Positions 27,066-35,703 of a DNA stretch of 43,137 nucleotides are shown here, in pieces (positions within the stretch are counted from its first letter, which is position 1; each line of letters begins with the position of its first letter). The position numbers were made by a program, and so were the translations under genes. Location: IMG/VR virus record IMGVR_UViG_3300032117_000058, positions 1 to 43,137 of that record. The stretch is one strand, 5' to 3'. This stretch comes from a virus. Under the pieces are notes generated by a model. That model was not told the DNA's origin and did no database searches. It saw nothing but the letters and a program-made list of their open reading frames with translations.

Positions 27066-27728
27066 TCATCGAATACTCATGTATTTGTGTGTTTGCAAAG
27101 AAATTTTCCATCCATTTGAAATTGCTTGGTCTATACACAATTTCGTAGCTGATTTACTTTGACTGATTGGTTGTAACCAAATAGTTTGATTAGCAGAAGT
27201 ATTAGGGATTATTTTTAATTTTAGTTTATTAATGTCTGCTAACTTTCCTACTGGGAATTTGATCTCATTCACTCGTTTGAAGTTATCCAAATATACTTCA
27301 GTTCCTCCAGCCATGTCTAGTTTAGGGCTTAATGTAATAAATGAATCTTTGTGTGCTTTGATTTCTTTAATTCCAGCAGTTTCGATTTGTACTGTTCTAT
27401 TAGAATTGATAATTGCAGTAGTAAGTTCAGTTAGATCATAGATAGATGGTTCTCCTCCAGTAATCACAATATGTTTTGCTTTGTAGTTTTTCAACAACAA
27501 CATTATTTCTTCAGCAGACATTTTTGAATACGTATCTTCATCTTCTGTCTTTTTGACCATATTAATGATAGGGATTAATTTATTGGTCATGTGCCAAGTA
27601 TGTTTTGTATCACACCAATGACAACCTACAGGACAACCTTGCAGTCTAATAAATACTGATGGTGTTCCAGTAAAACTTGCTTCACCTTGAATTGTTTCAA
27701 ATATTTCGTTAATTGGATATTCGTTCAT
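27066..27728 (-). CDS. queE: 7-carboxy-7-deazaguanine synthase, radical SAM (220 aa)
   Basis: The N-terminus reads EIFETIQGEASFTGTPSVFI then the radical-SAM cluster motif with C32, C36 and C39 (C-x3-C-x2-C). Later HIVITGGEPSIY carries the GGEP motif that binds SAM. QueE converts CPH4 into CDG, the 7-deazaguanine core. The length is typical. It is the last gene of the operon, overlapping queD by ATGA. In a phage with DpdA it supplies the base for DNA modification rather than tRNA queuosine. Confidence 0.93.
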   Translation of the reverse strand: MNEYPINEIFETIQGEASFTGTPSVFIRLQGCPVGCHWCDTKHTWHMTNKLIPIINMVKKTEDEDTYSKMSAEEIMLLLKNYKAKHIVITGGEPSIYDLTELTTAIINSNRTVQIETAGIKEIKAHKDSFITLSPKLDMAGGTEVYLDNFKRVNEIKFPVGKLADINKLKLKIIPNTSANQTIWLQPISQSKSATKLCIDQAISNGWKISLQTHKYMSIR

Positions 27729-28180
27729 TTAGATGGTCCTGTATAGATAGCTGAATTAGCTCCATGTTCAAATACTTCAACTGAAACCAATCTAACTCTT
27801 GGTTTATAAAAGTTTTCTTTTAACCATTGATTAGTCATGTCATAAGCTATCTCAGCAAACTTTTCACAACCATTGTCAGGAACAATCACCAAATCTAATA
27901 CTCCAAGCTCTTGACCTTGTTTAAAGTAATCTAAATGCGGATCGTCTACTGCTACAACTACTTTATGATCGAACATATTTTCAATTTGAGCTTTTAGAGT
28001 TTTAAGACCTCCAAAGTCAACTACCCAATTACGTTCGTCTAATACATCTGACTCAAATGTTAATTTAAAGCCTAAAGCATATCCATGAATTTTTTGGCAA
28101 TGAGAATGTGCTTTCCATTGTCTAAAGGCGGCAGAGATACCTATATGGTTTCCATAAGTCTTAGTTGATTGATAACTCAT
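27725..28180 (-). CDS. queD: QueD-like 6-carboxytetrahydropterin synthase (151 aa)
   Basis: This has the PTPS/QueD fold. It contains ISAAFRQWKAHSHCQKIHGY with the catalytic-type C28, but the Zn motif HGH reads HGY (H32, Y34). Further motifs are WVVDFGGLKTLK, MFDHKVVVAVDDP, and VEVFEHGANSAIY. This resembles a QueD subfamily with 'FRQW--SHC---HGYAL' that I recall from bacteria and phages, so the altered Zn motif is probably natural. It would convert H2NTP to CPH4. It is coupled to folE and queE by ATGA overlaps. Confidence 0.86.
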   Translation of the reverse strand: MSYQSTKTYGNHIGISAAFRQWKAHSHCQKIHGYALGFKLTFESDVLDERNWVVDFGGLKTLKAQIENMFDHKVVVAVDDPHLDYFKQGQELGVLDLVIVPDNGCEKFAEIAYDMTNQWLKENFYKPRVRLVSVEVFEHGANSAIYTGPSK

Positions 28181-28830
28181 TTGACTAACCTCAAGAATTC
28201 ATTTTTTAAATCTCTATTGTTTTCAAATTGACCTCTCATAACTGATGTAGTCATCTTTGTTTCTGTTTCTTTAACTCCACGCCATGTCATACATTGGTGA
28301 GTAGCTTCCATTAAGATTGCCAATCCTTTAGGTTCAATCATAGATTCAATAATGTCTGCAAGTTGAACAGTTGATTCTTCTTGTATTTGTGGTCTAGCCA
28401 AAACCCATTCAGCTAACCTTACGAATTTACTAATACCAATTACTTTATCGCTTGGCAATATACCAATCCAAAGTTTTCCAGTAATAGGTACAAAGTGATG
28501 ACTACAAGCAGAACGAACAGTTATAGGTCCTAATGTATATATTTCGTTGAGACTTTTAGCATTTGGAAAGTCTGTAATGGTAGGCATTTGTTCATATCTT
28601 CCTTTAAACACTTCACGAACATACATCTTTGCAATACGTTGTGGAGTTTCATAAGTATTATGATCGTTTTCAGAATCAATTACTAATATATCTAATATTT
28701 CTCTAAACTTAACTTCTAATGCTTCTTGAATTGAATCAATATCATTTTTAGACAAGTATTGTGAAATGTTATCGTTGGCGAAGTAAGTTCCACCAGCTTT
28801 AGTAATTTTGTCAATGATTTTAGTAGACAT
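28177..28830 (-). CDS. folE: GTP cyclohydrolase I (217 aa)
   Basis: The ATG at 28830 (MSTKIIDKITKAGG) has AAGGA five bases upstream. An upstream in-frame start would overlap the previous gene far more. FolE motifs are present: ACSHHFVPITGK (C and H Zn ligands), IGISKFVRLAEWVLARPQIQE, and HQCMTWRGV (second Zn Cys). GTP is opened to 7,8-dihydroneopterin triphosphate, the first step of both folate and 7-deazaguanine synthesis. Here the neighbours show the latter. Confidence 0.93.
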   Translation of the reverse strand: MSTKIIDKITKAGGTYFANDNISQYLSKNDIDSIQEALEVKFREILDILVIDSENDHNTYETPQRIAKMYVREVFKGRYEQMPTITDFPNAKSLNEIYTLGPITVRSACSHHFVPITGKLWIGILPSDKVIGISKFVRLAEWVLARPQIQEESTVQLADIIESMIEPKGLAILMEATHQCMTWRGVKETETKMTTSVMRGQFENNRDLKNEFLRLVK

Positions 28831-29161
28831 TGTATTCCTTAGTAATAGTTGCTCCACATTCGTTGTCTTCACTAACACTTGCTGTGAATGTTCTATAATA
28901 CTTAGAAGATAAATCTTCAGAAAGTTTTCGAGCCATCATTTCACAACTCATATTGTTCATTTCGCCATCTTTGAAAAATTGTTTTCCTTCATCAATTAGA
29001 TCATGAAATTCAATTTCTCGATCATCGTGATCTACAGGACAACGAAGCTCAACATAAAAGTTATGACGATGACGATTTTTTAAATAGTCTCTATGTTCGG
29101 TTGCATCTTTCCAATGATGAAATCCTTCAAACGAAAAACGAACAAAAATTTCTGCTTTCAT
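28820..29161 (-). CDS. second PTPS/QueD-like protein (113 aa)
   Basis: This small protein starts with FSFEGFHHWKDATEHRDYL, then NRHRHNFYVELRC with an H-x-H (H31, H33) where QueD has HGH, DREIEFHDL, MSCEMMARKLSEDL, and ends with VSEDNECGATI in place of the Glu-His ending. The general plan is that of a 6-pyruvoyl-tetrahydropterin-synthase fold, but the catalytic Cys preceding the HGH of QueD is not present. It is encoded with dpdA and folE, so a role in deazaguanine processing is likely but unproven. Confidence 0.7.
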   Translation of the reverse strand: MKAEIFVRFSFEGFHHWKDATEHRDYLKNRHRHNFYVELRCPVDHDDREIEFHDLIDEGKQFFKDGEMNNMSCEMMARKLSEDLSSKYYRTFTASVSEDNECGATITKEYNVY

Positions 29162-34544: not shown

Positions 34545-34746
34545 CTTTTGGCACTTCAGAAATTTTCTCAGGTAACAAAGTTATTGGACTTTTGTCTCCC
34601 CATTGGTGAAAAGAACAATAGGGTCTACTGCCTTCCATACGAACTGTCCAAATCTTTGTACATGACGGTTCACTACATAACAAAGGTGTAATGTCTGTCT
34701 CAAGTTCTTCTTTTTGAATCAATTGTTTTTTAAAACTCATTTTCAT
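34516..34746 (-). CDS. small Cys/His zinc-ribbon-like protein (76 aa)
   Basis: This protein includes LLCSEPSCTKIWTVRME and RPYCSFHQWG, a C-x4-C then C-x2-H arrangement that could bind zinc. Start options are ATG 34746 (overlapping the DUF1376 stop by ATGA) and ATG 34740, which lies nearer the optimal distance from AAGGA. It lies directly behind the replication protein gene. A DNA-binding helper is possible, but the function is unknown. Confidence 0.55.
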   Translation of the reverse strand: MKMSFKKQLIQKEELETDITPLLCSEPSCTKIWTVRMEGSRPYCSFHQWGDKSPITLLPEKISEVPKDAWWAKDEL

Positions 34747-35516
34747 TTCCTTCCGTTATCGTATTGACCTTCACACACTTTCAAAAAATTTGTCGGCAAC
34801 ATAAGCCAATCAAAACTTGCTTTCCAAACCCTGCCGTTCTTATTGTTTGTCCTGCCACTCAAAAAATCAGATTTGTTAACTTGCCTAAAAAAATTTCTAA
34901 AAATCTCAAGCCCTTCGTCTTTTGACTGTAAATTGTCTTCAGCATCAACTTCTCGCCATCGAGAGACAAGATGTTTCTTTCGAGTGGTATTCATCATCAT
35001 TACTCGAGCTAAACTTTTACATTCTTCGTGATAAATATCAACGATTTCATTAACTGGACAATTGATTCTCGGGCTTGTCAAGTCAAAATCCGATGAGGAT
35101 TTGACAAGTACCGTAGGTACTGTATTTATAATTGGTTCTTGGTTATTGGTTAATGGTTTATGGTTATTGGTTAGTTGAACGTCCGTTGAACGAGCGTTTA
35201 ACCTCTTTTCAGCAGATGCTTTGCCTGCCTTGGAAGCATTGTCAATCTTTGACTTGTAATTGCTGATTTCTTTCTCAGCTCTATGATGAATCCATCCATC
35301 ACCAATAAGCTCAAAAAACTCATTTAATACTTGTTCGACTTCTTGTTCGTATTCCTTTAAACCTATCTGTCGTGCAACGGTTGTTACATTGCTGTTGAAC
35401 GGACGTTCACTTAAATAATAGTTATCAAGTAATCGCCTGTAAGCAATATCTTCAATAGGGGAAAGATGTCGGGTGTGACTGGCGTAGTCGCCAATGTTGA
35501 ACTGGTAATAGTGCAT
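34743..35516 (-). CDS. DUF1376 (YdaU-like) replication protein (257 aa)
   Basis: The N-terminus HYYQFNIGDYASHTRHLSPIEDIAYRRLLDNYYLSERPF is the DUF1376 signature, associated with phage/prophage replication initiation alongside DnaC-like helicase loaders. A basic AGKASAEKRLNARS linker follows, then a C-terminal region with KKHLVSRWREVDAED. The transcript leader upstream (35532-35607) is structured. It is the first gene of the minus-strand replication block and starts downstream of the minus-strand promoter at 35613-35640. Confidence 0.8.
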   Translation of the reverse strand: MHYYQFNIGDYASHTRHLSPIEDIAYRRLLDNYYLSERPFNSNVTTVARQIGLKEYEQEVEQVLNEFFELIGDGWIHHRAEKEISNYKSKIDNASKAGKASAEKRLNARSTDVQLTNNHKPLTNNQEPIINTVPTVLVKSSSDFDLTSPRINCPVNEIVDIYHEECKSLARVMMMNTTRKKHLVSRWREVDAEDNLQSKDEGLEIFRNFFRQVNKSDFLSGRTNNKNGRVWKASFDWLMLPTNFLKVCEGQYDNGRK

Positions 35517-35531
35517 TCGTACCTACGTTTT

Positions 35532-35612
35532 TGTACATCGTTACAAGAAGAATCGGCGGCAGGACGGTAACGAATCGTCTTTTCGGGAGCTACCCTAGCC
35601 GAGATTCAAAGC
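35532..35612 (-). promoter_or_regulatory. structured 5' leader RNA of the replication operon
   Basis: Between the minus-strand -10 and the DUF1376 start lie several complementary segments. GAATC/GATTC plus GGC/GCC (35550-35557 with 35598-35607, a two-base bulge) close an outer stem. GGGTAGCTCCC makes a small hairpin, and GACG/CGTC (35563-35566 with 35576-35579) another. TCGTTAC and GTAACGA (35538-35544 and 35567-35573) can pair instead, an alternative to the GACG/CGTC hairpin. Such competition is typical of regulatory leaders. No known class is certain. The layout loosely resembles phage c4-type antisense RNAs. Confidence 0.5.
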
Positions 35613-35640
35613 ATTATAAACTGAGAAATAAATTCGACAA
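35613..35640 (-). promoter_or_regulatory. sigma70-like promoter for the leftward replication genes
   Basis: Minus strand: -35 TTGTCG (35640-35635), a 16-bp spacer, and a perfect TATAAT -10 (35618-35613). It is about 97 bp upstream of the DUF1376 start and would transcribe the structured leader. Confidence 0.65.
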
Positions 35641-35673
35641 CTAAATTATTTTCAAATATATTAGAAAAACCTG

Positions 35674-35703
35674 TTGTCTTTAATATATTACGGAATTTAT
35701 AAT
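35674..35703 (+). promoter_or_regulatory. sigma70-like promoter for the rightward recombination operon
   Basis: Plus strand: -35 TTGTCT (35674-35679), an 18-bp spacer, and a perfect TATAAT -10 (35698-35703), 46 bp before the first ATG at 35749. Its -35 mirrors that of the leftward promoter. GACAAC (35636-35641) and GTTGTC (35673-35678) form an inverted repeat overlapping both -35 boxes. Confidence 0.65.

Follow-up and report, generated by a model that had tools for sequence, protein, structure and literature searches.

Antisense RNAs of the CopA/RepA type are encoded on the strand opposite to their targets and are fully complementary to them. C4 RNAs are encoded upstream of their target, within the same operon. 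The C4 RNA of phages P1 and P7 is small, has three stems and uses a loop to pair over the ribosome-binding site of its target, as described in the available parts of two sources (PMC5320573, PMC12197685), the first of which, in that part, also describes C4 as being cut by RNase P from a longer transcript (PMC5320573). In satellite phage P4, the operon that encodes the CI RNA also contains two sites with which this RNA pairs, and the RNA controls replication genes via premature termination, according to the accessible portion of a third source (PMC4825925).

The int-alpA RNA (Rfam family RF02996) is a known family, although an orphan and unexplained one. The motif was reportedly named by Weinberg and colleagues in 2017. 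Its name refers to closeness to integrase and alpA genes, a neighbourhood that is not part of the covariance model defining membership. The Rfam entry is of the type 'Gene; sRNA', with a model that holds no loop-leader pairs. No account of a target of the int-alpA RNA was found in the literature searched, the naming paper of the motif lying outside it; the available part of one genome paper merely lists the RNA, without studying it, in two of five STEC genomes. Here, we describe an int-alpA RNA in a virus record together with its relatives in phages and bacterial genomes, the new part being the two-site pairing with the downstream leader. We consider it fairly likely from the sequences that the int-alpA RNA works as a C4-like antisense RNA, in which the loop of hairpin 2 would pair with two leader sites and repress the downstream gene.

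The int-alpA RNA of the window and its surroundings

The window, by which we mean the whole stretch of DNA that was analysed, is a 43,137-base IMG/VR virus record. It contains tail-sheath, baseplate and terminase genes, making the phage myovirus-like. Neither a PF00589 integrase nor an HTH_3 repressor over the cut-off was found in this record, which may be incomplete; with none of the lysogeny genes sought being present, lysogenic immunity is not an obvious purpose in this phage. Near DNA matches in phage genomes (megablast) are restricted to a 38-nt match in two Vibrio phages, while a more distant DNA search of phage genomes mostly matched a repetitive stretch within a coding region. At positions 27066–28878, radical-SAM QueE-like and GTP-cyclohydrolase genes lie close together, possibly a sign that the DNA of this phage carries 7-deazaguanine modifications.

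The initial annotation had placed a structured element at 35532–35612 and proposed a cmscan search as a check. This search identifies a single Rfam family in the window, the int-alpA RNA, at 35538–35605 on the minus strand: the same strand and, within a few bases, the same place. The match scores 39.1 bits against a gathering score of 35.8 and is full length (model positions 1–71 of 71), and alignment to the Rfam consensus shows that the outer stem, the two hairpins, the CGAAAAG linker and the CCTG motif are all present. The integrase and alpA neighbourhood is absent here, as the neighbouring genes encode DUF1376, Erf and exonuclease proteins and no PF00589 domain is found; most of the int-alpA relatives that we collected likewise adjoin genes other than integrase or alpA.

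The Rfam consensus, together with covariation in the outer stem and in hairpin 2, gives the RNA the fold of a three-way junction (35550–35607, minus strand). Its outer stem pairs 35607–35598 with 35560–35550, with a bulge at 35556–35555, and encloses hairpin 1 (35595–35585), a GAAAA linker and hairpin 2 (35579–35563), the arrangement of an outer stem with two hairpins that had been drawn from this sequence by itself. Hairpin 2 exposes the putative antisense loop, 5′-TCGTTAC-3′ (35567–35573), as judged from tests of loop-leader complementarity. The initial annotation had staked its structured leader in part on covariation in relatives, and this is present: in an alignment of 22 related leaders (A3), the outer stem and hairpin 2 show standard pairs in 92.0% of cells and 19 two-sided changes, against 5.5 in shuffles. 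Hairpin 1 was excluded from these pair counts because of an indel between relatives, and the outermost pair of the outer stem is formed in only 9 of the 22 leaders. Fold energy was rejected as evidence for structure, since the minus-strand value of −18.8 kcal/mol corresponds to a z of −0.43, with 71 of 200 shuffles being equally good; the plus strand folds better than the minus strand (z −1.95). In terms of sequence evidence, it is covariation that supports the outer stem and hairpin 2, and not fold energy.

Directly 5′ of the RNA, a consensus scan finds a promoter-like site on the minus strand (35613–35640), consisting of TTGTCG (35640–35635), a 16-nt spacer and TATAAT (35618–35613) and matching 10 of the 12 consensus bases, which bears out the minus-strand promoter suggested earlier. 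As this promoter-like pair ends at 35613, the transcript is predicted to start close to where the outer stem begins, near 35606. On the plus strand, promoter-like sites at 35634–35703 face the Erf/exonuclease operon, back to back with the promoter of the RNA. Downstream of the RNA lies the presumed controlled gene (34743–35516, minus strand), which encodes a 257-aa DUF1376 protein (Pfam PF07120, E 3.4e-24). Its PHROGs matches to primosomal protein and replication initiation O-like protein characterize it as a phage replication initiator or primosomal-type protein.

Complementarity of the hairpin-2 loop to two leader sites

In the window, the loop of hairpin 2 is complementary to GTAACGA (site 1; 35538–35544, minus strand), located just after the RNA fold, with 7 Watson-Crick pairs and a predicted duplex energy of −8.4 kcal/mol. 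The initial annotation had read TCGTTAC with GTAACGA as mutually exclusive with the pairing of GACG and CGTC. The complementarity is real, while the exclusivity is wrong: GACG and CGTC form the arms of hairpin 2 and TCGTTAC the loop that they enclose, and both pairings can therefore coexist with the hairpin intact. A second site follows further downstream, and its core in the register common to the relatives is AACG (site 2; 35526–35529, minus strand; A3 columns 82–85), adjoining a Shine-Dalgarno-like AGGT. The window also has a site-2 alternative of its own, GGTACGAAT (35515–35523, minus strand), which overlaps part of the AGGT and two bases of the start codon and would pair with ATTCGTTACC of the loop and arm, forming 9 pairs with one bulge at −8.8 kcal/mol, against −0.8 kcal/mol for a control stretch. 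Two columns of the loop, 38 (G, U or A) and 40 (C or U), covary with both sites among the 22 close relatives, with 10–11 two-sided changes each. This covariation amounts to 0.343 for site 1 (shuffles 0.143, best slid control 0.173) and 0.569 for site 2 (shuffles 0.262, best slid control 0.155).

The idea of loop-matching sites arose from a side-by-side reading of relatives. For the discovery set, we used a pattern that fixes only CTAG, CGAAAAG and CCTGNCG and leaves the loop and the leader unconstrained. At least 240 pattern matches were obtained from viral and genome contigs, the window included, of which 137 pass hairpin filters and 116 are non-redundant; 31 near-misses, many of them probably real, were omitted. 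The row of the window is merged with the identical locus L073 in the locus sets, and stands as a separate row in A3. Leaders swapped between loci in 5000 permutations served as the control. Over 83 distinct loops, the longest Watson-Crick run is 5.64 in the site-1 zone, compared with 3.39 in swapped leaders (z 22.1, 0 of 5000), and 4.98 in the site-2 zone, compared with 3.85 (z 11.9, 0 of 5000). In the same set, zones upstream of the RNA are at chance (z 0.5 and 0.4), the zone past the start codon shows no complementarity (z −1.1), and neither the loop of hairpin 1 (z 0.8 and −1.4) nor the arms of hairpin 2 are complementary to the leader. The reversed site-1 zone is raised as well (z 7.8), meaning that composition or near-palindromy explains a small part of the signal.

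The validation set consists of loci found over whole genomes by Rfam's model alone, a model that yields matches over its cut-off in 12 of the 12 genomes holding pattern loci. We could parse 135 of the 138 hits examined (L275, L284 and L366 were dropped), and hits without a locus that stood low in the survey tables were fetched in part, as 60 regions. For the 89 distinct loops that are absent from the discovery set, both site 1 (z 15.8) and site 2 (z 9.6) exceed the swapped leaders (0 of 5000 each), with the flanking zones, including those upstream, being at chance. When both sets are joined, giving 172 distinct loops, 104 of these reach a threshold of 5 or more Watson-Crick pairs at each of the two sites, against a mean of 13.4 and a maximum of 25 in 5000 swapped trials; at the same threshold, 45 loops match site 1 only, 10 match site 2 only and 13 match neither. 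The signal persists when each unrelated cluster of downstream genes contributes a single locus (114 loci; z 21.8 for site 1 and 12.6 for site 2).

Site 2 is positioned over the start of the downstream gene. Among the loops with site-2 matches of at least 5 pairs, 98 of 103 overlap positions −15 to −4 of the start codon, an overlap that is partly forced by the short search zone, which does not affect the swap control. The start codon itself lies 27–47 nt downstream of the RNA in 217 of the 233 chosen ORFs, the chooser favouring nearby starts. The spacer before site 1 is short, G-poor and pyrimidine-rich, with a narrow range of lengths.

Three copies of a short motif could also be DNA operators for a repressor protein, with the hairpin being incidental. 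G-U mismatches in the loop-site duplexes are not enriched over A-C mismatches (10 versus 11 at site 1 and 8 versus 16 at site 2, in 6-base windows), which is in keeping with operators, and without a G-U excess the mismatch test cannot separate RNA pairing from a DNA repeat. Speaking against operators, both hairpin 2 and the outer stem show RNA covariation, one copy of the motif sits exactly in a hairpin loop, site 2 tracks the Shine-Dalgarno region, the promoter region lacks complementarity, and more than 170 different motifs would require equally many protein specificities. We regard operators as a very improbable explanation of these matches.

Comparison with known antisense systems and probable mode of action

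The family, the fold, the locus-specific complementarity to both sites, the position of site 2 and the promoter-like boxes are all read directly from the DNA. Together with what is described for C4 and P4 CI, they bear on how the RNA may act. The initial annotation had considered an attenuator, a riboswitch-like element or a c4-type antisense RNA. The attenuator finds no support, as a scan of the window turned up no intrinsic terminator. For a ligand riboswitch, the scaffold is conserved, but the part that varies is a loop that tracks its target and the downstream genes are unrelated, falling into 122 clusters, which makes this reading unlikely. The c4-type antisense RNA is favoured as a way of working, with a loop that matches two sites far above the swapped-leader controls, while membership of the C4 family as Rfam defines it (RF01695) was rejected, neither the window stretch nor six phage loci giving a match at E ≤ 10.

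As in C4, the target of the int-alpA loop overlaps the ribosome-binding region of the next gene (98 of 103 site-2 matches). C4 uses two loops (a′ and b′), whereas the antisense part of int-alpA would be hairpin 2 only, the hairpin-1 loop not being complementary. Furthermore, int-alpA has promoter boxes at the 5′ end of the RNA, whereas C4 is processed from a longer transcript, as given in the available part of the source (PMC5320573). In the 113 upstream stretches of the discovery set, we count 29 instances of TATAAT, with one mismatch allowed, whose end lies 3, 4, 5 or 7 nt 5′ of the outer stem, over a background of 0.16 per position further upstream. In the validation set (124 stretches), TATAAT is enriched only when two mismatches are allowed, with 9 occurrences at 7 nt and 11 at 6 nt, against 2.5 per position. 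With the CopA/RepA type, int-alpA would share the control of a replication gene by an antisense RNA through its leader, and some int-alpA RNAs precede Rep3 or RepA_C genes; int-alpA differs in lying on the same strand as its target and in having a short loop match.

The likeness to P4 CI, as described in the accessible portion of its source, would lie in a single antisense RNA for which its own operon contains two complementary sites and which has a replication gene as target (PMC4825925). In P4, one site is located upstream (seqA) and one downstream, whereas both int-alpA sites are downstream and upstream zones are at chance (P4 layout from the same portion; PMC4825925). Control in the manner of P4 CI would mean that pairing makes transcription end early within the leader, in a Rho-dependent way, instead of keeping ribosomes off. 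The pairing of P4 CI with two flanking sites and its premature termination of a replication operon, as that portion of the source has it (PMC4825925), lend some weight to this, since the gene in the window is also a replication gene. The location of site 2 on the Shine-Dalgarno region and the lack of complementarity upstream of the RNA, where P4 has seqA, argue against termination, which we consider improbable. In anatomy, int-alpA combines C4 and P4 CI: one loop and two downstream sites, the second of them on the Shine-Dalgarno region. Our best reading of these sequences is that its mechanism would be a variant of C4-like antisense control, carried out by an RNA that is not a C4 RNA by Rfam's models.

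The main rival to translational repression by an RNA acting in trans, which we take to be the likeliest action, is pairing within one molecule. Here, the RNA would be a cis-acting leader switch, in which a pseudoknot of the loop with site 1 leaves the gene on and pairing with site 2 turns it off, as set by an unknown signal or by the speed of transcription. Several observations fit such a switch. The RNA lies nearly always directly 5′ of its sites (for 159 of the 172 loops, one or both show 5 or more pairs), the spacer to site 1 is short, G-poor, pyrimidine-rich and narrow in length, and the window lacks a terminator that would release a separate RNA. Identical loops are also tolerated within a genome: they occur in 3 of 68 same-genome pairs, compared with 59 of 8977 pairs between genomes, so that an avoidance of the same loop is not seen and a role in immunity is not favoured. 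Against a switch, two strongly kept sites per antisense RNA are the layout of C4 and P4 CI, as far as the available parts of the sources describe them (PMC5320573, PMC4825925), and no conserved sensor is seen beyond the scaffold. Overall, we find a cis-acting switch unlikely, if less so than P4-like termination.

In the preferred C4-like mechanism, the promoter just 5′ of the RNA would give a transcript starting at the outer stem, which would fold into the junction and present the loop of hairpin 2. The loop would then pair with site 1 just after the RNA and with site 2 over the Shine-Dalgarno and start region. Pairing at site 2 would keep ribosomes off and thereby repress the downstream gene, in this phage the DUF1376 replication initiator. 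We infer that the RNA exists as a separate molecule that acts in trans besides acting on its own transcript, and that repression is timed: since the RNA would accumulate as copy number rises, translation of the gene would be possible upon entry of phage DNA or while this DNA is scarce, and would cease later. For a replication initiator, such accumulation would amount to negative feedback on replication as well.

Distribution and downstream genes

The int-alpA RNA is common. Among 200 genomes from the family around G003, 41 have a match and 37 a match over the cut-off; among 398 from the phylum around G002, the corresponding numbers are 52 and 51, each draw including its known-positive centre genome. 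The 233 downstream ORFs of the listed loci form 122 BLAST clusters. In the viral list, 16 of 73 downstream genes encode DUF1376 proteins, and HNH and GIY-YIG nucleases, primases, Rha and Rep3 proteins also occur. In the bacterial list, 20 families are represented among 137 members, including RepA_C, an integrase and a HigB toxin, alongside many unknowns. Two of these 137 proteins (alignment A2) match the NCBIfam model of the RNA-guided endonuclease IscB (best E 1.3e-14), possibly via the HNH domain only.

Named phages with an int-alpA RNA include P22-like BIS08P22, Enterobacter phage Tyrion, Edwardsiella phage GF-2, Halomonas phage YPHTV-1 and Acinetobacter phage Ab105-2phi. At the named phage loci, the loop and sites match as judged by eye, and 4 of the 6 phage loci examined exceed Rfam's cut-off. 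The locus of Ab105-2phi (L244) is a larger variant upstream of a Rha gene that, at 33.5 bits, falls below this cut-off; its loop GACTGTTCATA and leader TATGAGCAGTC match over 11 nt.

The P22-like RNA and leader are matched in 54 of 5426 E. coli genomes. Prophages of E. coli M9 and 13KWH46 (L385 and L386) are identical over ~210 bp up to the ATG, a stretch that includes the int-alpA RNA, and the genes beyond it are unrelated. This locus is an exchangeable-gene site between lysis and packaging genes. Comparison of seven loci (two phages and five E. coli prophages) gives six unrelated downstream proteins. One contig (L383; G229, contig 33, 1200–6600) has three copies of the int-alpA RNA in 2.5 kb. 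The operons that follow them differ: naming the genes by eye from the translations gives an integrase-like gene for one, a HigB-like toxin-antitoxin pair for another and an unknown gene for the third. Two of these three RNAs have the same loop, and the match in their leaders is poor.

We tentatively propose, as a reading with slightly less than even prospects, that int-alpA RNAs are portable, self-contained antisense cassettes, each comprising a promoter, a scaffold whose address loop varies and a leader with two sites that extends to the start codon. Such cassettes would stand before unrelated genes (replication initiators, homing-type endonucleases, primases, toxin-antitoxin pairs and integrases) in phages, prophages and islands, with each having its own loop-site code and giving a burst of expression at DNA entry, followed by silence. 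With the antisense reading, the orphan Rfam family gains a concrete, testable candidate function, and its leaders offer ready pairs for studying how one short loop recognizes two sites. If the proposal is true, the cassettes amount to a library of riboregulator addresses assembled by nature, with more than 170 entries, and C4-like antisense control would be a general device acting on many kinds of mobile genes, beyond P1/P7 and P4.
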